A DNA stretch of 64,000 nt from NCBI RefSeq assembly GCF_007747995.1, contig NZ_CP036276.1:1107001-1171000 (forward strand). The letters run 5' to 3'. The notes under the pieces were generated by a model. The model had not been told where the DNA came from. It did no database searches and saw only the letters and a list, made by a program, of their open reading frames with translations. This DNA comes from Symmachiella dynata. Lineage in GTDB: Bacteria > Planctomycetota > Planctomycetia > Planctomycetales > Planctomycetaceae. Within the stretch, counting starts at the first letter, position 1; each line of letters opens with the position of its first letter. Position numbers and translations under genes: made by a program. Shown here piece after piece: positions 4,387 to 25,679 of the stretch.

Positions 4387-5775
4387 ATGAATAACTCGCA
4401 GTTGCGGCGGATTGGGGTGCCGGATTTTTGTATTAAGTCGGCGCTGGCGGCGGTGCAGGTGTTGGCCAAACAGCGCGGCGTCCGTGGGGGAGCAATGAAG
4501 GAGCGGATGCGTGCGGTGTTGGCGGCGCCTGAGGATTTTGTGGAGGACGTTGACCTTGGGGAATTCGCACGCGATATCATCGAGGATCGTGAGTTCACGC
4601 GACCGGAGCCGATTGAATATCGTACCTGGGGTAACGACATCGATGCCGGGGCACATCATCAGATGCAGCAGTCCTGTTCGTTGCCGATGGCGGTCGGCGG
4701 GGCGCTGATGCCCGATGCGCATATCGGTTACGGTCTGCCGATTGGCGGGGTGTTGGCGCTGGACAATGCCGTTGTGCCGTATGCGGTCGGTGTGGACATC
4801 GCTTGCCGTATGAAACTCTCGGTGCTCGACTTGCCGGTGGCGGCGCTCGATGAGGAATTTCATCGCTGCAAGCACGCCCTCGAGGGGGGGACGCGGTTCG
4901 GCGTCGGGTCTACGCATCAGCGGCCGCAACAGCACGATGTGATGGATGAAGATTGGACCGTTACCCGCGTCACGCGCGAAAACAAGGACAAGGCCTGGCG
5001 ACAACTGGGGACGTCCGGTTCGGGGAATCACTTTGTCGAGTTCGGCGTGTTTACACTCGACGTGCGCGATGAGGAACTGGGCCTGGATGCCGGGGAATAT
5101 GTCGCGCTACTCAGCCATAGCGGGAGTCGTGGGGCGGGGGCGTCGGTCTGCAATGTTTATAGCAGCATCGCCCGCAAGCGATTGCCAAAGCGTTACGAAG
5201 ATGTGCAACGCTTGGCGTGGCTGGACATGGATTCCGAGGCGGGGCAGGAGTACTGGGCGGCGATGAACCTGATGGGGGACTACGCCGCTGCCAACCATGC
5301 GGTCATCCACCGACTGGTCTCGGACCTGTTGGGAGCAGCGGTGATTGGAGGAGTGGAGAACCACCACAACTTTGCTTGGAAGGAGATGCACGGCGGAAAA
5401 GAAGTGATCGTACACCGCAAGGGAGCAACCCCGGCAGGAGCGGGGGTCTTGGGCGTGATTCCCGGTTCCATGGCGGACCCGGCGTACGTTGTTCGCGGCA
5501 AAGGAAACCCAGCCAGCCTCGACTCCGCCAGCCACGGCGCCGGCCGCCGTATGTCGCGCACGCAAGCCAAGGATACGTACAACTTCAAAGCGGTCAAGAA
5601 GGATCTGGCGGTCAAGGGAATCACCATCCTCTCGGCCGGCGCCGACGAAGTCCCGGGCGTGTACAAGAACATCGACGCCGTGATGGGCGAGCAGCAGGAT
5701 CTGGTGGATATTGTGGCGCGGTTTGATCCGAAGATTGTGAAGATGTGCGGGGATGGGAGCCGTGCGGAGGATTAG
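4387..5775 (+). CDS. rtcB: RtcB-family RNA ligase
   Basis: A 462-residue protein with a strong ribosome-binding site (GAGGGATGAG) before ATG. RtcB joins 2',3'-cyclic-phosphate or 3'-phosphate RNA ends to 5'-OH ends using GTP and Mn2+, in tRNA or stress-induced RNA repair. Family motifs are in order: MPDAHIGYGLPIGG (about 108-121), GVDIACRM with the metal-binding Cys140, GSGNHFVEFG, LSHSGSRG, ENHHNFAW, HRKGATPA, and SHGAGRRMSR with the histidine that is guanylylated. Length matches the long bacterial RtcB form. No archease or rtcA lies beside it, so its regulation and RNA target are not evident. Confidence 0.93.
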   Translation: MNNSQLRRIGVPDFCIKSALAAVQVLAKQRGVRGGAMKERMRAVLAAPEDFVEDVDLGEFARDIIEDREFTRPEPIEYRTWGNDIDAGAHHQMQQSCSLPMAVGGALMPDAHIGYGLPIGGVLALDNAVVPYAVGVDIACRMKLSVLDLPVAALDEEFHRCKHALEGGTRFGVGSTHQRPQQHDVMDEDWTVTRVTRENKDKAWRQLGTSGSGNHFVEFGVFTLDVRDEELGLDAGEYVALLSHSGSRGAGASVCNVYSSIARKRLPKRYEDVQRLAWLDMDSEAGQEYWAAMNLMGDYAAANHAVIHRLVSDLLGAAVIGGVENHHNFAWKEMHGGKEVIVHRKGATPAGAGVLGVIPGSMADPAYVVRGKGNPASLDSASHGAGRRMSRTQAKDTYNFKAVKKDLAVKGITILSAGADEVPGVYKNIDAVMGEQQDLVDIVARFDPKIVKMCGDGSRAED

Positions 5776-5923
5776 TTGGCGGAGGAGTCGCGAGGAATCG
5801 TCTAGCCTTCGCAGAGTTAAAATCAGAGAATGATTGCAAAGCCGGGTCGCGAATGTACAGCATGAAGCTTGCTCCGCGACAAGTTGTGAACCCAACCCCT
5901 CTTTATGTGCGAACGCGAGCCTC

Positions 5924-6649
5924 ATGTTAAAAATCATCCTTTTCTGTGTGGCAATTGCATTTGTGTTGCCGGCGTTTTGCCAAGAGAAACCTGCCGAGGA
6001 CGATAAGTCAGCCTACGCACAAGCGCACGAGCTGATGAATCCAGAATTGTACATGGAACAGAGAGCTCGCAAGGCAGTCGTCCTGCTTACAGAGGGGCGG
6101 GAGATCAAATCGCTTGAGTCTCGGGAGCTTGCTCTACTCTGTCATGCTTACAACGAGCTATTTGAACACAACGAGCAATTAAAAACGGCGAGACTTCTCT
6201 GGACTCGCGAACCGGAAATTCGTGAAGCGACAAGTTGGATGATCAATTCGCTGCACAATTCATACATGTTCGCAGATGACAATAAGCCATTGATGGACTT
6301 TGTTGATCAAGCTTTACACGATGGCAAGGGGAATCGACGTGAACTGTTGACATTTAAGGCGATGGCAACGATCAACCAAAAAAAAGGGCTCTCCGACGCC
6401 GAGAAAAGGGTTCTTGCGTCCGACCTGCTGATTGAGGCATATCGGTATGACCCCCAATTCAGACATGGAAGCCCATTAGGAGAGTCCGAACTAAAGGATG
6501 CTATCAGGGACGACTCACCAGATTTTATCGACCGCGATCTGCCATTCTGTTCGTTTTTCAGTACGGCTGAACGTAATTCGCTTAAAATACGTATGCGCGA
6601 GGCGAAGGCAGAGCGAAAAGCAAAGCAATCACAGAAAAAAGACGGATGA
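5924..6649 (+). CDS. Exported hypothetical protein
   Basis: Start set at ATG 5924 because it opens a clean signal peptide (MLKIILFCVAIAFVLPAFC, then QEKP). The mature part, about 220 residues, is largely alpha-helical and charged, with TPR-like helix pairs around residues 55-140 and a lysine-rich tail. No family is recognised and no catalytic motif is seen. It could be a TPR-type scaffold in the periplasm. It lies between rtcB and a putative metallopeptidase gene, both on the same strand with gaps of about 140 bp. Confidence 0.65.
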   Translation: MLKIILFCVAIAFVLPAFCQEKPAEDDKSAYAQAHELMNPELYMEQRARKAVVLLTEGREIKSLESRELALLCHAYNELFEHNEQLKTARLLWTREPEIREATSWMINSLHNSYMFADDNKPLMDFVDQALHDGKGNRRELLTFKAMATINQKKGLSDAEKRVLASDLLIEAYRYDPQFRHGSPLGESELKDAIRDDSPDFIDRDLPFCSFFSTAERNSLKIRMREAKAERKAKQSQKKDG

Positions 6650-6787
6650 ACCGGTGCCGCTGGACGACTGCGTTTTTCCAGAATTGAATCTGAGTGCCGG
6701 GTGCCGATAGGGGAAACTCCTTGGCTTCGGTGAATGACTCTCAAAGAATCACTGCAGTATCTTTTCAGTCGAAACCTTATTTTATAG

Positions 6788-7732
6788 ATGAATGCCGCGG
6801 TCGTGCAGATTTCCCTATCTACAATCCCCAACTCGCTTGAGACTCGCACCGGGCTTCCGCGTCCCAACTGGCCTGCGATTTATGATTGGGTCGATGCAAA
6901 CGTAACTCGCGACGCGGACGTCGACGAGATATGGACTCAGTTGGCGCGTGATTGGATTGACGCGCTGATTGAATCGTTGCCGACCGGTTATGCGCGGAGC
7001 GAATCTCGCGAATTCATGGTGCTCTCTAGCGGCGACTCGCCCACGGCGGAACATCTGCTTGAGTGTTGCGAATCCTCTCGGCGGATCATTCTTGACAGTC
7101 TGGGTAGCGTTGCTCGCGAGGAAGGTTATGGCAAGTATGTACTGTTCGCTTTTGCGAAGGCGGACACCTATTACGACTACATCGCTGATTACTATCCGGA
7201 CGAGGGGGAATTCGGTTTATCCGGCGGAATGTTTCTCGATGATGGATATGGCCACATTGCAATTCCCGCGGTGTATGCGGGGGGATACGAGCGTACGCTT
7301 GCCCATGAAATGACCCACGCACTTCTGCGCCACCTGCCGTTACCAGCTTGGCTAAACGAGGGGGTGACTCAGGTGATCGAAGACATCGCTATGGGAGGTT
7401 CGTATTTTATGGTGGACCGCGAAACTGTGCGTAAGCATCGCGACTATTGGAACGTCGACACAATCGACGCATTTTGGTCGGGTGAGTCGTTCTATGCGTC
7501 CGACGAAGGTCAGGAGCTAAGCTATCATCTTGCGCAGATCCTCTATCGCAACCTAGTGTCTGATTACCCGAAACAGATCGCGCGTTTTTTGAATTCGGCC
7601 AACTATTCCGATGCCGGTGAGGCGGCCTTGGTCGACGTCTGCGGTGTTTCACTGTGTGATCGCGTCACGCAATTCTTGGGGCAGGGGGCGTGGAGTCCCC
7701 GTTCAGACTATTTTGAGATTGACGCCGAATAG
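6788..7732 (+). CDS. Putative zinc metallopeptidase (HExxH, gluzincin-like)
   Basis: A 314-residue protein without a visible signal peptide. Residues 173-177 are HEMTH, and E191 follows in the LNEGVTQ turn, giving HExxH with a nearby downstream glutamate as in MA-clan peptidases of the DUF1570/peptidase-MA-like kind. The N-terminal 150 residues show no known domain. The C-terminal part has helices compatible with the subdomain below the active site in gluzincins. The substrate is unknown. The two neighbours on the same strand are exported, which hints that this protein may act at the envelope, but it lacks an obvious export signal. Confidence 0.7.
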   Translation: MNAAVVQISLSTIPNSLETRTGLPRPNWPAIYDWVDANVTRDADVDEIWTQLARDWIDALIESLPTGYARSESREFMVLSSGDSPTAEHLLECCESSRRIILDSLGSVAREEGYGKYVLFAFAKADTYYDYIADYYPDEGEFGLSGGMFLDDGYGHIAIPAVYAGGYERTLAHEMTHALLRHLPLPAWLNEGVTQVIEDIAMGGSYFMVDRETVRKHRDYWNVDTIDAFWSGESFYASDEGQELSYHLAQILYRNLVSDYPKQIARFLNSANYSDAGEAALVDVCGVSLCDRVTQFLGQGAWSPRSDYFEIDAE

Positions 7733-17603: not shown

Positions 17604-19139
17604 ATGAATATCAAGACTTATATTTTGGCGCTGTTGTGCCTTTTCGTCAGCTTGACAAGCCGCTGCGTATTGGCGCAAACGAACCAAGTTCTTGACATCG
17701 GCAACCGCCGCGAACTGTTCATTGACGACCATCTTGTGGGCGAGATGAAGAACGTTCAACTATTGGTCCACCAGCCGATCCGCGAGGAGATCGCGGTGAA
17801 ATGCGATCAGCCTTGGGAGGGCAATGGCTGCGGCTACTACACGGTCTTGCACGATCGCCAAGAGGCGGTCTACCGCATGTACTACCACGCTTGGCAGATT
17901 CCCACAGGCATCGAACCGGGCGGACCACTAACCATTGGCTACTTCGAGAGTCAGGATGGCATACATTGGGAGCGGCCCAATCTTGGTCTGTGCGAGTTCC
18001 AAGGTTCGAAAGACAACAATATTATTTTGGACAAGTTGGGTGACGGCGGTCGCTGCCACGATTTCTCACCTTTTATCGACTCGAATCCCGCCGCGAAACC
18101 GGAGGGGCGATACAAGGCCATCGGAGCCGGGTTTGAAAACCAGAAGGGCATCTGGGTCTATCAGTCGCCCGATGGAATTCACTGGACCCCCATGGCCCCC
18201 GGGCCGGTGTTCGACAAAGGGGCATTCGACACGCAGAACATTTCGTTCTGGTCGGAGACAGAGAAGAAGTATGTGATGTATTACCGTGTTTTTTCTAAAG
18301 GTGGTTTCTCGGGGACACGGCTGATCAACCGAGCGGTCTCGGACGATTTTCTCCATTGGACCGATGAGGGAACCATTGCTTTCCCCGAGGGTGAAGGGCC
18401 GCAACCGCTCGCGCAGTTTTATGTCAATCAAGTCAAGCCGTATGAGCGAGCGCCGCATCTATACATTGGGTTTCCTGCGCGGTATGTCGATCACGGATTG
18501 ACCGCTTCGACTCCTTTGTTGCCCGAGTGGAAGCTGCGCGAAAAACGGATGACAGTCACTCCGCGATATGGCACGGCAATTACGGACTCGATTTATATCA
18601 CGAGCCGCGATGGCCGAAACTTTCGTCAAAGCAACGACGTTTTTTTACCACCCGGATTGCGAACCAAACACAACTGGTCGTACGGAGACAATTACATCGC
18701 TTGGCATGTCGTCGAAACTGAGTCGGTCAAGGACGACGCTCCGCGCGAGCTTTCGCTTTATGCCACGGAATCGTATTTCACGGGTCGCCAATCCCGCTTG
18801 CGGCGCTATTCATTACGCGTCGATGGTTTCGCTTCGATGCACGCCAAGCTGAAACAAGGTGAGTTCACGACCAAGCCTATTCGCTTTTCGGGGAAGGAAC
18901 TTTCGCTGAATGTGGCGACCAGCGCCGCTGGTCTGGTTCAGGTGGAAATTCTCTCGCCCGACGGCACACCCATCTCCGGCTTTTCGCTCGCGGATTGTGA
19001 CATCATCTATGGTGACTCACTCGATCGCCGCGTCAGTTGGAAAGGGAACAGGAGCGTTGAGGCCCTCGCCGGTCGTCCCGTGGTCCTGCGGATGGTCGTG
19101 CGTGAAGCAGACGTGTACTCGCTGAAATTCGAAAACTAG
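17604..19139 (+). CDS. Secreted glycosidase-like (five-bladed propeller) protein
   Basis: Start at ATG 17604 gives a good signal peptide (MNIKTYILALLCLFVSL, ending VLAQ). The 511-residue product begins IGNRRELFIDDHLV, a frequent N-terminal signature of planctomycete secreted proteins related to the GH32/GH43/GH68 five-bladed propeller fold. It has repeated blades such as GYFESQDGIHWERP and YQSPDGIHWTPMA, and a C-terminal beta-sandwich from about residue 415. The repeated 'SxDGxHW' motif is seen in such propellers. A sugar-cleaving role is an inference; the acidic catalytic pair was not assigned. Confidence 0.7.
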   Translation: MNIKTYILALLCLFVSLTSRCVLAQTNQVLDIGNRRELFIDDHLVGEMKNVQLLVHQPIREEIAVKCDQPWEGNGCGYYTVLHDRQEAVYRMYYHAWQIPTGIEPGGPLTIGYFESQDGIHWERPNLGLCEFQGSKDNNIILDKLGDGGRCHDFSPFIDSNPAAKPEGRYKAIGAGFENQKGIWVYQSPDGIHWTPMAPGPVFDKGAFDTQNISFWSETEKKYVMYYRVFSKGGFSGTRLINRAVSDDFLHWTDEGTIAFPEGEGPQPLAQFYVNQVKPYERAPHLYIGFPARYVDHGLTASTPLLPEWKLREKRMTVTPRYGTAITDSIYITSRDGRNFRQSNDVFLPPGLRTKHNWSYGDNYIAWHVVETESVKDDAPRELSLYATESYFTGRQSRLRRYSLRVDGFASMHAKLKQGEFTTKPIRFSGKELSLNVATSAAGLVQVEILSPDGTPISGFSLADCDIIYGDSLDRRVSWKGNRSVEALAGRPVVLRMVVREADVYSLKFEN

Positions 19140-19140
19140 C

Positions 19141-19268
19141 AGCCCGCCTGAAAAACCAAAAACATCCGCGAGTCGGGTGCCACTTCTGGCTTGTCCAGCA
19201 GTGTTTTACGTGTCACGCTGTTTGCACTGGCGGACAAGCCGCCAGTGGCACCCTTTTTGGGGCGGGCT
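19141..19268. repeat. Palindromic repeat element
   Basis: A 128-bp imperfect palindrome directly after the stop of the preceding gene. Outer arms are AGCCCGCC (19141-19148) and GGCGGGCT (19261-19268). Inner 29-nt arms at 19175-19203 and 19225-19253 pair at 24 of 29 positions. The right arm holds a nested 8-bp hairpin (ACTGGCGG/CCGCCAGT, 19226-19246). The element has no coding capacity and may be a REP/MITE-like unit or act as a terminator. Confidence 0.7.
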
Positions 19269-19693
19269 TCTAGGCGGAGGTCATCGCTTGTTATGCGCCG
19301 AAGCTCGTCAATCGATATCGGCGAATTGCGCTCCCTCTCTCTCTCGTCATTCCTGATGGTTACCCGCGAATTGACGCTTCAAATCGCCTGCTCGCAATTT
19401 GATTGGCGCTAGGCTCTCTCTGATTCCGGCGAGAAAATCGCCTCTATATCACGCGCTACGATGCGTGAATTCCGACGACAGTCCTGGCCAAAATCATCGG
19501 GGCAGGGAAAAGCCGCGTTACATTCCGCTGCTGCCGTCGCCTGTCATGGCAGAGGCAGGAAGAATTGATCAATTCTGAGAGTTGTCTATGTCGGGCGCCG
19601 GACCTCGGGGCAGAGTGCCGATGCGGTGCGGCAGTCCATGTGTAACCCAGGTGCGTTGCGCTTCAGACAACGCACGCTCAGGAGACAGGAATC
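19269..19693. other. Intergenic region before the VIT/VWA gene
   Basis: About 425 bp without a supported gene. It must carry the promoter of the gene at 19694, but no consensus pair stands out. A short open frame from 19191 runs through the palindromic element and looks spurious. Confidence 0.45.
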
Positions 19694-21829
19694 ATGAAAC
19701 GAATATTGAGACGCTCCTCTCTGTATGTGGCTGCGGTGGTTCTCGCGACGGTAGCCATGATGCCCGCGCCGGCCCGCGCCGCCGGTATGTTGATTGCCGA
19801 TGGCGGCTTTGGTGGCGTGTTGGAGATTGAAGAGCACACGGCCGATGTGACCATTAACAACGGGGTGGTGGTCACGCATGTCACGCAGGTCTTTCGCAAC
19901 ACCGAGGATCGGCAAGTGGAGGCGCTGTATCTGTTCCCCGTGCCCAAAGCGGCATCGGTGGCGAATTTTAGTATGTGGATCGGCGGCAAAGAGATGGTGG
20001 GCGAAGTCTTGGAAAAGAAACGGGCCCGCGAGATCTACAATAGTTACAAGCAACAGCGCCGCGACCCGGGCCTTTTGGAACAGGTCGACTACAAAAACTT
20101 TGAAATGCGAATCTTTCCGATTGGTCCCAAAGCTGAACAAAAGGTGCAAATTACCTATTACCAAGAACTTGATTTCGATCATGACTGGGCGACCTATGTC
20201 TACCCGTTATCAACCGCGCCACGTTCCGGGTTGGATGCACAGACACAGGGGAAATTTGGTCTGACGCTACACGTTAAATCACAGATCCCCATTAAAAAGC
20301 TGGAAAGCCCCAGTCACGGCGACGATTTTGTTGTCGTCCGCCATACCGACTCGTACTACGAAGCCAGTTTGGAAACCGACGGCGGGGACTTAAATCGTGA
20401 CATCGTTTTGGCCTATCACGCCACGCGTCCGCATACGGGAATCGACGTGATTACATCGAACCAATCCGGCGATGACGGGTATTTCCAACTCACATTGACG
20501 GCTGGAGAGGAGTTGGCCGAAGCGTATACCGGAATGGATTATGTCTTTCTGCTCGATATTTCCGGCAGCATGGCGCGGGATGGCAAATTGCGGATTTCTC
20601 GCAATTCGATCGATGCCTTCATTGGCGAACTGGGGACTGAGGATCGGTTTGAACTGATTACGTTCAATGTCGTCCCTAGTACTTTGTTCAACCAATTGCA
20701 GCCGGTAACGGATCAGTCACAAGCGGAAGCAGTCGAGTTTCTCCGTTCGCAACAAGGCCGCGGCGGTACGGTGCTGCGACCGGCCATGGCGACCGCCTAC
20801 AAATATGGTGATCCCGATCGTCCGTTGAATGTGGTCATCCTCAGCGACGGGATGACCGAGCAGTCAGAGCGACGGGAGCTACTCGAATCCATTCAATCGC
20901 GTCCCTCGGGAGCTCGTGTCTTTTGCATCGGAGTGGGCAATGAAGTGAATCGACCGTTACTATCGCAACTGGCCGAAGAGGCGGGCGGGTTGGCTGCGTT
21001 TCTCTCCGGGGGTGACGACTTCTCCCGACAAGCGGAGTCTTTTCGCCGTAAACTCCTGCGTCCGGCGGCTGCCGATGTGAAGATCACCTTCGACGGCGGG
21101 GGTGTGTATGACGTTGAACCGAAGCAATTGCCCAACCTGTATCACGGCATGCCGGTGCGTTTGTACGGTCGTTACCGGAAAAGCGGACCAGCGACGGCGC
21201 GGCTGACAGCTGAGGTCAACGGAGCACCCATCGAACAATCGGTATCGCTGGAATTTGCCGAGGTCGATCCTGCCAATCCCGAAATTGAACGTATGTGGGC
21301 TTGGTTGAAAGTGAATCGACTGCTGAAACAAGCGGACCGCGCTGGATCACGAACCACCGTAATCGATGAAATCGTACGGCTCGGTGAGCAGTATTCGATC
21401 GTGACCGAATATACCTCCTTTTTGGTGTTGGAAAACGACGCCGAATACAAACGTTGGCAAATCGAGCGCCGCAACCTGCTGAGAGTCGGACGTGATCGTC
21501 GGGCACAAAAGCAGCAACGTGCGGAGTTGCAACGGCTGCGCGAACAGGCATTCACGGAATTGGGTCCGAACGTCGAACCCACGACGCCACAACCGCAGCA
21601 GGTGGTTCAAAACGAGACGGCTGTTCGCAACGTTCCATTGCAGGCAAATCCGACTCCGGTCACACAACCGCCGGGACAAAGCCGCGATGTGAGCTTTAGT
21701 CCCGGTGTATCAGGCGGCGGTGCGTTTGATCCGATCAGTGGAGGAATTGCACTGGCGTTAGCGGGCTTGGGTTTCGCCGCCCGCCGTCGTCGCCGCTCCA
21801 ATATGGATGATGAAAACGGGGAGGTTTAA
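19694..21829 (+). CDS. VIT and VWA domain protein with GlyGly-CTERM-like tail
   Basis: A 711-residue protein with AGGAGA before ATG and a signal peptide cut after ARA (about residue 29). A VIT domain occupies about 37-165 (VTHVTQVFRNTEDRQVEALY, LEKKRAREIYNSYKQQ). A VWA domain follows from about 280, with the MIDAS motif DISGSMA at about 288-294. Residues 600-675 are a Q/P-rich linker. The end reads SGGG at 673-676, a hydrophobic stretch 681-696, then five arginines 697-701 and a short acidic tail. This small-residue/TM/Arg organisation resembles GlyGly-CTERM sorting signals. The stop codon abuts the start of a rhombosortase gene, so the protein is probably its substrate. Confidence 0.88.
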   Translation: MKRILRRSSLYVAAVVLATVAMMPAPARAAGMLIADGGFGGVLEIEEHTADVTINNGVVVTHVTQVFRNTEDRQVEALYLFPVPKAASVANFSMWIGGKEMVGEVLEKKRAREIYNSYKQQRRDPGLLEQVDYKNFEMRIFPIGPKAEQKVQITYYQELDFDHDWATYVYPLSTAPRSGLDAQTQGKFGLTLHVKSQIPIKKLESPSHGDDFVVVRHTDSYYEASLETDGGDLNRDIVLAYHATRPHTGIDVITSNQSGDDGYFQLTLTAGEELAEAYTGMDYVFLLDISGSMARDGKLRISRNSIDAFIGELGTEDRFELITFNVVPSTLFNQLQPVTDQSQAEAVEFLRSQQGRGGTVLRPAMATAYKYGDPDRPLNVVILSDGMTEQSERRELLESIQSRPSGARVFCIGVGNEVNRPLLSQLAEEAGGLAAFLSGGDDFSRQAESFRRKLLRPAAADVKITFDGGGVYDVEPKQLPNLYHGMPVRLYGRYRKSGPATARLTAEVNGAPIEQSVSLEFAEVDPANPEIERMWAWLKVNRLLKQADRAGSRTTVIDEIVRLGEQYSIVTEYTSFLVLENDAEYKRWQIERRNLLRVGRDRRAQKQQRAELQRLREQAFTELGPNVEPTTPQPQQVVQNETAVRNVPLQANPTPVTQPPGQSRDVSFSPGVSGGGAFDPISGGIALALAGLGFAARRRRRSNMDDENGEV

Positions 21830-22501
21830 GTGTTCTCTGAAACGAAGAATAACGCGGCAGTGAGATGTCTTCCCGGCATCTCACTGTTGCTGGGAGGAGT
21901 GGCAGTTTGTTTGTCGTTTCTTCCAGCGATTGCGGGCTCCCTGCAATATGATCCTTCTGCAATTGCCGAGGGCCAACTGTGGCGGGTCGTGACTTGTCAT
22001 TTCACACATTGGTCGCTGGATCATTTGATCTGGGACGCCCTCGCATTTGTAATTCTAGCTGCATTGTGCGAGACAACGGATCGTCGGTCATTCCTGTTGT
22101 GTCTGATCGCTTCGGCGGTGTTGATCCCGCTCTTCCTCGGTCTGTTGATGCCCGAAGTCGACGCTTACCGTGGACTCTCTGGGATTGATTCGGCTCTCTT
22201 TGTGCTGGCGGCAACAACCATCTTGCGAGAGAATGTGACCACTCGACGATGGGGGTGGGTTGTGGCGGCGGGTATGGTTCTTTGTGGATTCGCGGCCAAG
22301 ATTGGCTTTGAATATGTGACCGGTCAAACTTTGTTTGTCGATAGCGCAGCTGCCGACATGGTGCCCATTCCGCTGGCCCATGTGGTGGGAGGATTGGTTG
22401 GAGTCGGAATCGGCGGGTGGGGTTGGATGAGCAGCGGACGATCCGTAGGCAGCCGCATCGCGTCACGCTTATCGCCGGCAACGTATCGGACTTCGAATTG
22501 A
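21830..22501 (+). CDS. Rhombosortase-like intramembrane serine protease
   Basis: Translation starts at GTG immediately after the TAA of the VIT/VWA gene, with GGGGAGG inside that gene's last codons as ribosome-binding site. The 223-residue product has about six TM segments. Rhomboid features are visible: HFTHWSLDHLIWDALAF near residues 57-73, the active-site YRGLSGIDSALF with Ser117, and the partner histidine His184 in PLAHVVGGLVG. The shape matches rhombosortases, which cleave GlyGly-CTERM tails and release or re-anchor exported proteins. Its only neighbour with such a tail is the gene directly before it. Confidence 0.85.
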   Translation: MFSETKNNAAVRCLPGISLLLGGVAVCLSFLPAIAGSLQYDPSAIAEGQLWRVVTCHFTHWSLDHLIWDALAFVILAALCETTDRRSFLLCLIASAVLIPLFLGLLMPEVDAYRGLSGIDSALFVLAATTILRENVTTRRWGWVVAAGMVLCGFAAKIGFEYVTGQTLFVDSAAADMVPIPLAHVVGGLVGVGIGGWGWMSSGRSVGSRIASRLSPATYRTSN

Positions 22502-22580: not shown

Positions 22581-25500
22581 ATGTCAAACCAACCGGTGGT
22601 CGAAAAGCGGGGTTGGATGCGGACGCTCGTTCGCTGGCTGGCAACCAAATACTACCCCACCATCGAGACGACCGGTTCTGAGCGGATCCCCCAAACGGGA
22701 TCCGTTCTGCTGTGCGCCAATCATGCGAATTCGTTGATCGATCCGGTGCTGATCGGCATCGTTGCCCGCCGGCCGGTTCGGTTCATGGCCAAGGCACCGT
22801 TGTTCGATAACCCGTTGCTCGGCCCTCCGATGAGGGCATTGGGAATGATTCCCGCCTATCGCGGCAGTGACGATGCCCGTGATGTTCGTCGTAATATTGA
22901 AAGCCTGGACGTCGGTGCCAAGGCGCTGGTCGACGGCCTGGCCATGGGAATCTTTCCCGAAGGAAAATCGACCGACCAGGCGCATTTAGAAATGGTCCGT
23001 TCCGGCGCTGCGCGGATGGCTCTGCAAGCTGTCGCGGAAGGGGCCGACGACTTGTTGGTCATTCCGATTGGGATCACCTACGAATGCAAAGATGCGTTTC
23101 GCTCCTCCGTTTGGATTCAGGTGGGTGAGCCGATTGATGTAGCGGAGTGTCTGGCGGAGCATGACGGAAAGGAGCGGGTCGCGCGGCGCAGCTTGACTCA
23201 ACTGCTCGAAGCGCGGTTGAAAGATGTTGTCGTGCATCTCGACGAACCAGACTGGGAACCATGGCTCGACGATCTGCAGTCGCTGGCCGAAGCACCTCGC
23301 GATGCCAACAAGGAAACGTCGCCGCCATTAAAACGACGGAAACGGATCGCCGATGCGATTAACTACTTCTTTGCCAAGGACCGCCCACGGGCAGAATCGG
23401 TGGCTGACGACATCAAGGCTTATCGCGACCATGTTCAGCAGGCCGGACTAACCATCGAATCGCCCGTGTTGCGGCTCCGCGGTTTTCGGGTCTTCGCCGA
23501 GATCGCCTGGGAGCTGTTTTGCCTGATCCTGTTGTTCTTCCCGGCACTGGCGGGAACGTTGCAGCATCTCGTTCCGTTTGTCATCGTTCGCGGGCTAGCG
23601 CCGTATTTTGACCAGCCCGGCCGCAAGACGATTGCCACCAGTCGGGTCTTTGTTGGTTTGCCTGCCTATTTGCTCTGGTATGCTGTCGTTGCTTGGTGGG
23701 CGTTTGGCTACTTTGCTCCCTGGTTTGCCTGGACCTGGATGATTGCTGCGCCGTTTTGCGGGGTGATCGCCATCCACTATTGGCGAAGGGCGGGCCGCGT
23801 CGCGCAGTTGATCTGGCATCAGATTCAAGTCACCATTGATCGCAAGACCTTATTGAACCTACGTCAGCAGGAAGCGGACTTGCGTACGGAGCTGCGTGGT
23901 TTGGCTGAGGATTATGAAGAAGTCTCGCCGCGGCCGATCAAGGAATTCCGTCCGTCTCGTAAAAGCCAAATCGGACGCATCGCCGGGCGAGCCCTCGTCG
24001 TATTGTTGGTCTTTGCGACTCTTTGGATTGCGCGTTATCGCCTTTTCGACGATCCACTCAGCGGGAGCGGGCTGGACGTCCAGCAGATTTCCCAGCGACG
24101 AATGACGGCCTTGGTTGATGCTGATGAACAAGAACTCAATCGGCTCATCGACGAACTGGATACCTTAGAAGCTCGGGCGACACGCCTTCAGCGCGATTTT
24201 AATGATGGCAACCGTTCATTCACAAATCAGGCGGATGACGATGACCTTCGGGAAGTCTTGCGACGCTACATGACCCACCGCGAAGCTCTGCTCCGGATCG
24301 TCTGGAAGTATCAACGCTATGCGGAAATTGAGAATGAGGAACTGCGTCTCCGCACCTTTCTGTTGGAATTTACAGCGGCCTCGATGCTGTATGAGGCGTC
24401 GCTCAAATTCGTCCATCAATTTGGTGACCGTTCTGAGGCAGTCGCCAAATTGAACGAGCCTGAACCGAACTGGGGAATTCCTGCCGGGTTGTACGACACG
24501 ATTCGGCATAATCTCGCCAGTCCCCAGAATATCCGCATGTTCGAATTGGCGCGGCAGTACTATCACCAGGAGCATGTGCAACAGCAGTTGAAAACGCATG
24601 CACTCTTAACCTCGCCGCCTTACGATCGGTTTCACAATGCCATTGAGGATGCGGAAGCGACGATCCGTGAAATCAACGATTCGGTCTCCGCACGGGTCAT
24701 CCAAGTCGCTGTTTCTGATTTGGGGAACCTGATTTATCATGCGCAATACGCGACACAATCGCTGGTTTCGACCTGGATTGGCGATTTTAAAATCCGGCAA
24801 CCCCACGGGGGCGAACCGCTTATCGATAAGCAACAGTTGGCCCAATTGAGCGAGGTGCTTGAGCCGGGCGATATACTCTTGGAGCGGCGGAATTGGTATC
24901 TGTCCAACGCTTTCCTACCTGGCTATTGGCCGCACGGTGCGGTCTACGTTGGCACGACGGAAGACCTGAAGCGTTTGGGACTGGATACGAATGAATACGT
25001 CAGCAAACATTGGCACAAGTTCTCAGCCAATGATGAGGAAGGGCACCCCCATGTGATCGTGGAGGCGGTCAGCGAAGGCGTGATCTTCTCGTCGTTGGAA
25101 CACTCGATCGGCGGCGCGGATTCGGTGGCCGTGCTGCGGCCCAGCGTCAGTGAACAAGAAAAAAAGGACGCGATCGTGAGCGCCTTTAGTTTCGCCGGAC
25201 GGCCCTACGATTTTGAGTTCAACTTCGAAACGCCGTCGATGCTGGTTTGTACCGAAGTCGTGTTTCGTGCCTATGGCGGGAATGCCGGCACGATTCAGTT
25301 TCCGCTGGAAGAAATCATGGGGCGGCAAACCATGCCGGCCATCAACCTGGCGCGCAAGTTCGACGAGGAATACGGCAACGACGCTGCTCAGTTTGAATTC
25401 GTTGCTTTTATTGATGGTGATGAAGTGGCGGAAACCTCACGATTCGTTACCGATGCAGAGGCATTTCGCAATACCGTCGATCGCCCCGCTAGTTCGTTTG

Positions 25501-25679
25501 TCCAATCCTCCGACCCCATCGCGCTGAAAAGCATCGGCCCGCTCGGAAGGACGTTGGCATTTCTTACACTACTTGCCGCCGTGTGGGCTGTGGCAGCGCC
25601 GCTCGCGCGGCGACTCAGGTCTCCGAAACTGGCGGTGTCGAATGAACCGGAATCGACGGAGCCACCCCCTGGCCAATAA
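22581..25679 (+). CDS. PlsC-type acyltransferase fused to papain-like amidase domain
   Basis: A 1032-residue membrane protein with GGAGACC before ATG. Residues about 25-215 are a glycerolipid acyltransferase domain: NHANSLIDP (H48, D54) and FPEGKS are the catalytic and phosphate-binding motifs. TM helices lie near 300-330, 350-400 and 470-487, then a helical region (500-755). Residues about 758-900 resemble a YiiX/NlpC-like permuted papain fold: EPGDILLERR, YWPHGAVYVG (histidine about 783), and LVCTEVVFRAYGG (cysteine about 889). A final TM helix is near 980-1000. One half would acylate lysophospholipid; the other would hydrolyse an amide or ester. The combination suggests lipid or lipopeptide remodelling. 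Confidence 0.8.
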   Translation: MSNQPVVEKRGWMRTLVRWLATKYYPTIETTGSERIPQTGSVLLCANHANSLIDPVLIGIVARRPVRFMAKAPLFDNPLLGPPMRALGMIPAYRGSDDARDVRRNIESLDVGAKALVDGLAMGIFPEGKSTDQAHLEMVRSGAARMALQAVAEGADDLLVIPIGITYECKDAFRSSVWIQVGEPIDVAECLAEHDGKERVARRSLTQLLEARLKDVVVHLDEPDWEPWLDDLQSLAEAPRDANKETSPPLKRRKRIADAINYFFAKDRPRAESVADDIKAYRDHVQQAGLTIESPVLRLRGFRVFAEIAWELFCLILLFFPALAGTLQHLVPFVIVRGLAPYFDQPGRKTIATSRVFVGLPAYLLWYAVVAWWAFGYFAPWFAWTWMIAAPFCGVIAIHYWRRAGRVAQLIWHQIQVTIDRKTLLNLRQQEADLRTELRGLAEDYEEVSPRPIKEFRPSRKSQIGRIAGRALVVLLVFATLWIARYRLFDDPLSGSGLDVQQISQRRMTALVDADEQELNRLIDELDTLEARATRLQRDFNDGNRSFTNQADDDDLREVLRRYMTHREALLRIVWKYQRYAEIENEELRLRTFLLEFTAASMLYEASLKFVHQFGDRSEAVAKLNEPEPNWGIPAGLYDTIRHNLASPQNIRMFELARQYYHQEHVQQQLKTHALLTSPPYDRFHNAIEDAEATIREINDSVSARVIQVAVSDLGNLIYHAQYATQSLVSTWIGDFKIRQPHGGEPLIDKQQLAQLSEVLEPGDILLERRNWYLSNAFLPGYWPHGAVYVGTTEDLKRLGLDTNEYVSKHWHKFSANDEEGHPHVIVEAVSEGVIFSSLEHSIGGADSVAVLRPSVSEQEKKDAIVSAFSFAGRPYDFEFNFETPSMLVCTEVVFRAYGGNAGTIQFPLEEIMGRQTMPAINLARKFDEEYGNDAAQFEFVAFIDGDEVAETSRFVTDAEAFRNTVDRPASSFVQSSDPIALKSIGPLGRTLAFLTLLAAVWAVAAPLARRLRSPKLAVSNEPESTEPPPGQ

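Follow-up and report, generated by a model that had tools for sequence, protein, structure and literature searches.

The question raised by this locus is whether a rhomboid-like protease of the planctomycete Symmachiella dynata has, as its own dedicated target, the protein encoded directly in front of it. Within the window, meaning the whole 64,000-nucleotide stretch of contig NZ_CP036276.1 (positions 1,107,001 to 1,171,000) that was analyzed, a gene for a protein with VIT and VWA domains is followed by the gene for this protease, with zero bases between the TAA of the former and the GTG of the latter, as an earlier note on the sequence had pointed out. That note had read the two as a rhombosortase and its substrate. 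We consider it highly probable that the gene pair is indeed a dedicated GlyGly-CTERM/rhombosortase cassette, in which the VIT/VWA protein would be cleaved and anchored by the neighboring enzyme.

Identity of the protease

The protease scored 117.6 bits against the curated rhombosortase model TIGR03902, with a cut-off of 84, but reached no more than 33 bits (cut-off 250) and 21 bits (cut-off 335) with two GlpG models, and it is thus far from being assigned to an ordinary rhomboid family, the outcome that the earlier note had named as speaking against its reading. Its predicted structure, with a mean predicted local distance difference test score (pLDDT) of 84.8, had GlpG as the best match in the PDB (expectation (E) value 9.7e-5, template modeling score about 0.6). 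Ser117 in the YRGLSG motif and His184, both singled out earlier, were invariant together with other residues in all 17 aligned relatives. The sequence evidence supports the view that the window protease is a rhombosortase, having Ser117 and His184 as its presumed catalytic dyad.

A protease of this fold could also act as a sheddase, cutting the tail with water and not lipid as the acceptor and thereby freeing the VIT/VWA protein to the periplasm or medium. Ordinary rhomboids hydrolyse, the window protease has a GlpG-like predicted fold, and GlpG of Vibrio cholerae cleaves the protein VesB with release of the product (PMC11980579, with GlpG cleavage also in PMC13393428; papers are cited here and below for the portions of their text that were available). 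We nonetheless find a sheddase unlikely, as the curated assignment is to the rhombosortases, far below the GlpG cut-offs, and the tail of the presumed target shows the tripartite shape of anchored proteins, which fits the rhombosortase cassette.

Fold and C-terminal tail of the VIT/VWA protein

For the VIT/VWA protein, structure prediction (mean pLDDT 82.6) gave a model whose top match was inter-alpha-inhibitor heavy chain 1 (PDB 6fpy), with an E value of 1.3e-38 over 592 columns at 18% identity, and the residues of the VWA metal site (D288, S290, G291 and S292) were invariant in 37 of 37 aligned proteins. The C-terminus reads SPGVSGGGAFDPISGGIALALAGLGFAA, RRRRR and then SNMDDENGEV, so that SGGGAFDP is followed by a hydrophobic stretch (residues 680-696), five arginines and an acidic end; the first three elements are present as they had been described. 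Sequence, alignment and a predicted helix over residues 680-704 agree in giving the tripartite GlyGly-CTERM shape, with a Gly-rich motif, a hydrophobic stretch and a basic end at the C-terminus. Among the 37 aligned proteins G674 and G676 were invariant, with G675, A677 and P680 conserved in at least 90%. GGGA was found in all 15 order-level tails, and in the 72 tails of relatives from named genomes Gly-(Ala/Pro)-hydrophobic was found without exception, followed by Asp/Glu-Pro in 59. The best mean hydrophobicity over 15 residues was 1.87 for the window tail and at least 1.33 for these 72 relatives. VIT/VWA proteins without such a tail, which had been named as a possible objection, do exist, but they are paralogues of about 30% identity outside the clade; none of the 12 having a complete C-terminus showed a comparable hydrophobic tail (best 15-residue mean 1.21).

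The acidic end had been called atypical, which is true only in a weak sense: by a crude rule, three or more Asp/Glu residues follow the first basic cluster in 14 of the 72 relatives. Vertebrate heavy chains presumably have a self-cleaving Asp-Pro site, which makes for a speculative parallel with the Asp-Pro of the tail. As a self-cleaving site the latter was kept as speculation, with 13 of 74 tails lacking [DE]P and the glycines varying differently.

Other tail models also gave matches. The MprA_tail model matched 7 of the 37 related proteins at E 0.1, and the window tail marginally passed the domain cut-off of TIGR03382 (16.0 against 15.85) while scoring 15.6 with TIGR03901 (cut-off 20). These two scores could be taken to suggest a MYXO-CTERM-like signal processed by a myxosortase-type enzyme. 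We hold that to be next to impossible: TIGR03382 matched 1 and TIGR03901 matched 2 of the 37 relatives, and the cysteine that is invariant in MYXO-CTERM (PMC11980579) is absent from the window tail, for which the label would therefore be wrong.

One enzyme and one target in the genome

The window genome (7.77 Mb, one contig) encodes a single rhombosortase above the TIGR03902 cut-off, with the next rhomboid at 41.9 against 84. When the genome was scanned with a profile made from 15 tails (A2; 150 of 173 candidates scored), the VIT/VWA tail was recovered as the single strong match, at 1.8e-20, and the other 12 matches were weaker, ranging from 0.006 to 7.8. The three best of the latter were inspected and rejected as extra targets, one being protein-internal, one having a PEP-type tail and one having no convincing tail, and the search for further GlyGly-CTERM tails proposed in the earlier note thus gave no convincing case among them. 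A locus scoring above the cut-off of the NCBI GlyGly-CTERM model TIGR03501 (L034) was rejected likewise, as its frame resembles a membrane protein and has no Gly-Gly tail, and the two further VIT/VWA proteins of the genome (L286 and L287) have no such tail. From the one rhombosortase and the one convincing tail found, the window genome is a one-enzyme, one-target system, in keeping with the dedicated substrate proposed earlier. The two-gene unit is also the simplest possible test bed for a rhombosortase, as its deletion should have one direct consequence.

The genome also encodes two exosortases above cut-off, and one or more of its proteins have a PEP-type tail (the frame of L038). Together with the failure of TIGR03501 to recognize the window tail, this could mean that the tail is a mere transmembrane anchor or is processed by some other enzyme, such as one of the exosortases, the rhomboid having a different job. 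Such an arrangement seems very improbable to us, with no PEP motif in the window tail and with the Gly-Gly-(Ala) signature accompanying adjacent rhombosortases.

Conservation of the gene pair

The occurrence and order of the two genes in related genomes speak for a dedicated cassette. In an order sample of 150 genomes, including the window genome, TIGR03902 matched at E 1e-14 in 39, of which 12 were above cut-off. Thirty order loci were examined (L001 and L005-L033), 17 of them matching the window protease strongly; 15 of these 17 have a VIT/VWA gene just upstream, and a contig end truncates each of the remaining two. Loci L021-L033, the 13 weaker ones, were rejected as rhombosortases and taken for other rhomboids, having no VIT/VWA neighbor and scores of at most 39 bits with the rhombosortase profile, one giving no match. 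Close orthologues of the VIT/VWA protein, 14 full-length (at least 777 bits) and one fragment, all came from genomes with a rhombosortase; the next score was as low as 241 bits, at roughly 30% identity. One genome of the same genus (G051) has neither a rhombosortase nor a close VIT/VWA orthologue. In G092, G114 and a second cassette of G096 the rhombosortase is paired with a more distant VIT/VWA protein having the tail GGGGAVEW; G096 carries two cassettes (L010 and L280) with differing target tails, GGGGAVEW and GGGGAIDP.

Of 294 genomes in a phylum sample, 26 matched a rhombosortase profile (A1) at E 1e-20, with a VIT/VWA gene just upstream in 24, in one of these as a contig-edge tail only. 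Among named genomes, 147 relatives were confirmed and the best 80 analyzed, five of these 80 starting at a contig edge. In 74 of the remaining 75, a VIT/VWA gene (72) or only its tail (2) lies just upstream of the enzyme, the exception (L090) having a tail frame about 1 kb upstream; L103, like L090, is not counted in the 74. The enzyme frame opens at most 300 bases from the end of the target in 66 of the 72 loci and at 363-843 bases in six, in four of which small frames of at least 100 amino acids fit in between. Most record titles name Planctomycetota; the rest name Verrucomicrobia, Lentisphaeria, Kiritimatiellota and some further groups, and several records are metagenome bins that are possibly misnamed. 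As order-level members supplied both the pattern and the profile, the samples are not independent, and the counts hold for this clade rather than for rhombosortases in general. The adjacency of rhombosortase and VIT/VWA genes, which the earlier note had suggested looking for, is widespread in planctomycetes, more than by chance.

Proposed mechanism and points against it

By its signal peptide, the VIT/VWA protein would cross the inner membrane, in which the C-terminal helix would stop with the arginines inside. By analogy with VesB, the rhombosortase would then use its Ser117/His184 dyad to cut the Gly-Gly-Gly/Ala-Phe junction after Gly676 (or Gly675), and the new C-terminal glycine would be passed to an amine, with an ethanolamine phospholipid as the most likely acceptor. 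In V. cholerae, cleavage of VesB by the rhombosortase leaves the second glycine exposed; this residue bears a group that contains glycerophosphoethanolamine, and type II secretion takes VesB to the surface (PMC6219818); a GlyGly-CTERM together with the rhombosortase RssP suffices for membrane association (PMC13393428). Once lipid-anchored, the protein of the window may be moved on to the surface or outer membrane, there to bind a putative ligand through its VWA metal site. Export is the least certain of these steps, because no secretin passes the GspD cut-off.

Several observations weigh against the interpretation of the pair as a dedicated cassette. TIGR03501 matched none of the 37 related proteins at E 0.1, the window protein included, and the latter gave no match even at E 1; on the window genome the model found two places, neither of which was the window tail. 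A search for the type II secretin GspD gave 22 matches in the genome, none of which reached the cut-off (best 266.4 against 351.35). Two of the 26 phylum rhombosortases (L243 and L247) have a different neighbor, showing that the family is not absolutely tied to VIT/VWA proteins. Finally, rhombosortase and VIT/VWA distances correlate with an r of 0.29 (at most 0.15 in 1000 shuffles), a weak agreement of the two trees that reflects the use of these rhombosortases by three VIT/VWA subfamilies.

Features and surroundings of the gene pair

Table 1. Positions of the gene pair and its parts in the window
Feature	Position	Strand	Basis
VIT/VWA protein, 711 amino acids, presumed rhombosortase target	19694..21829	+	Open reading frame, ATG to TAA
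N-terminal basic/hydrophobic segment MKRILRRSSLYVAAVVLATVAMMPAPARAA, read as signal peptide, residues about 1-30	19694..19783	+	Sequence; model helix 2-21
VIT domain, residues 45-155	19826..20158	+	PF08487, 109.5 bits
VWA domain, residues 284-436, DISGS metal-site motif at Asp288	20543..21001	+	PF13768 VWA_3, 73 bits
Tail signature GGGAFDP, residues 674-680; predicted cut before Ala677	21713..21733	+	Alignment; putative cut site by analogy with VesB
Hydrophobic stretch 680-696 and five arginines 697-701	21731..21796	+	Sequence; model C-terminal helix 680-704
Rhombosortase, 223 amino acids, GTG start	21830..22501	+	TIGR03902, GlpG-like predicted fold
Ser117 codon, presumed catalytic	22178..22180	+	YRGLSG motif, invariant in 17/17
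His184 codon, presumed catalytic	22379..22381	+	Invariant in 17/17

The next gene downstream (22581-25679) encodes a PlsC-type acyltransferase (PF01553) fused to a C92 papain-like amidase (PF05708), and a fusion 94% identical to it is likewise found downstream of the gene pair in the same-genus genome G102. An inverted repeat lies 5' of the VIT/VWA gene (19175-19253; arms of 29 nucleotides, 83% complementary, spaced by 21 nucleotides), being the sole such pair in 19100-19700, with no second copy of the arm in the window.

Two kinds of possible variant were seen among the related loci. The neighbor frames of L243 and L247 have Gly-rich, hydrophobic and basic ends with no VIT/VWA match and are possibly other dedicated targets. 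At L264 (7166-9991, genome G166) a VIT/VWA protein with the tail FGGSGPVNPF has as neighbors a weak match to rhombosortase (55 bits) and a distant activator of the kind described below; this may be an outlying form.

A sigma-54 activator beside the cassette in relatives

In planctomycetes and their relatives, the anchoring system is probably a sigma-54-gated module, in which a divergent activator with an unassigned N-terminal sensor-like domain would turn on an operon of target and rhombosortase, and where the target can be exchanged between subfamilies while the module persists; the branch of the window would have lost the gate or never had it. A divergent sigma-54 activator gene is found 5' of the VIT/VWA gene, on the opposite strand, in 43 of 60 decidable named loci; Lacipirellula limnantheis (L101) is one relative with the activator. 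In the three activators scanned, the sigma-54 ATPase domain PF00158 scored 157-160 bits and the N-terminal domain of about 185 residues had no Pfam match; the best NCBIfam match of the activator reached 198 of 650 bits.

A sigma-54 consensus was used to scan for promoters, a site being counted if no more than 5 of 100 shuffles reached its score. Of the 63 stretches taken upstream of the VIT/VWA gene, 35 contained such a sigma-54-like site, always at -96 to -16 of a common anchor. The controls gave 1 of 63 on the other strand, 3 of 63 inside the gene and 4 of 63 in the last 330 bases of the locus. Sites occurred both with an adjacent activator (26/43) and without one (8/17), and co-occurrence therefore does not prove the link between activator and site. 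Activator distances tracked those of the rhombosortase (r 0.79, 44 loci) better than those of the target (r 0.43), with shuffles giving at most 0.17.

The window copy has no adjacent sigma-54 activator. Its genome gave no match to the N-terminal domain of the activator at E 1e-5 (22 of 48 candidates scored), and the full-length activator matched at 18 places, solely in the ATPase part and beyond (from query residue 208 on). Sigma-54 control of the window copy was considered but found no support: in the 554 bases 5' of the ATG, the best site (12.8) is far from the gene, at -483, and inside the inverted repeat, and no sigma-54-like score above 4.3 was found within 300 bases upstream. Its nearest relatives, G102 and G013, had best site scores of 5.0 and 4.6.

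The activator was rejected as a partner exclusive to the cassette, its N-terminal domain being found in 33 of the 294 phylum genomes, 14 of which have a rhombosortase match. Outside cassettes, ten neighbor genes of this domain were checked, five encoding radical-SAM proteins (three with a B12-binding domain) and the others a DUF2339 protein, a sulfatase, a P450, a BNR-repeat protein and one protein without a family. In three rhombosortase genomes (G049, G072 and G104) the activator-domain match lies on a different contig from the gene pair. Activators with the same N-terminal domain, having no VIT/VWA gene beside them, were seen in planctomycetes without a cassette (L250-L279). In L084, whose record carries the name Desulfobulbaceae, the pair is followed on its own strand, and not divergently, by an activator-like frame (5646-7193; 438 bits with the activator profile).

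The accessible text of PMC3237569 mentions neither sigma-54 nor an operon, and 'regulator' appears in it once, in another sense; in what was available of PMC6219818, PMC11980579 and PMC13393428 the sigma-54 module is equally absent. A literature search, with most subscription papers lying outside it, did not find rhombosortase together with sigma54, sigma-54 or rpoN. The module found in relatives offers a handle on the timing of anchoring, which in the portions available of PMC3237569 is merely raised as a possibility.

Exchange of targets and the class GN sortase

By best match, the 72 targets fall into three subfamilies (51, 20 and 1). A quick tree of 81 enzymes implies 13 or more switches of target type, but just two of these are forced by well-supported branches, and many branches of the tree are long. 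In the firm exchange, a Roseimaritima locus (L100) having the target type of the window is joined with a Rhodopirellula locus (L123), the target of which scored 526.5 bits against the cut-off of 551.65 of the marine sortase-target model TIGR03788. The window target scored 249.5 and thus lies below that cut-off. The class GN sortase (TIGR03784) gave no match in the window genome at E 1e-10 and was found in 1 of 392 planctomycete genomes. This sole copy (L298, 1-2031) shares an open frame with a VIT/VWA domain, as either a fusion or a frame artefact. VIT/VWA homologues with GlyGly, PEP-CTERM or LPXTG tails have been shown before (Haft & Varghese 2011, Figure 3C; PMC3237569), and in line with that paper the same kind of target is indeed coupled to different sorting enzymes.

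Comparison with known systems

The pairing of a rhombosortase with its target and the one-to-one logic are already published, a planctomycete included (PMC3237569). That paper tabulates adjacent rhombosortase/GlyGly-CTERM pairs, among them those of Rhodopirellula baltica SH 1 and Opitutus terrae (Table 3), and 16 of its 21 single-target genomes have the two genes at most one apart; as in the window, such pairs have a single rhombosortase and a single Gly-tailed target in adjacent genes. Added here are the breadth across planctomycetes and relatives, the tail missed by TIGR03501 and the sigma-54 module. Unlike the tails described by the GlyGly-CTERM model, the window type, GGGA-hydrophobic-DP, escapes it; this tail is used by a large bacterial group, and such targets are probably under-annotated.

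The class GN sortase of marine proteobacteria (TIGR03784) with its target (TIGR03788) likewise couples a VIT/VWA protein to its own adjacent sorting enzyme, although that enzyme is unrelated to rhombosortase and the target tail is LPXTG. The earlier note was right in drawing this parallel, which has been in print since 2011 (PMC3237569). The RssP/VesB system of Vibrio cholerae, with the same enzyme family and a tripartite tail, serves as the model for cleavage and lipid attachment (PMC6219818), but RssP serves several unrelated proteins whereas one target was found for the window enzyme.

The vertebrate inter-alpha-inhibitor heavy chain 1 (6fpy), finally, resembles the fold predicted for the window target. 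Neither a rhomboid nor a membrane tail is known for the heavy chain. The C-termini of heavy chains are covalently attached too, in their case by ester bonds to glycosaminoglycan (PMC7170535).

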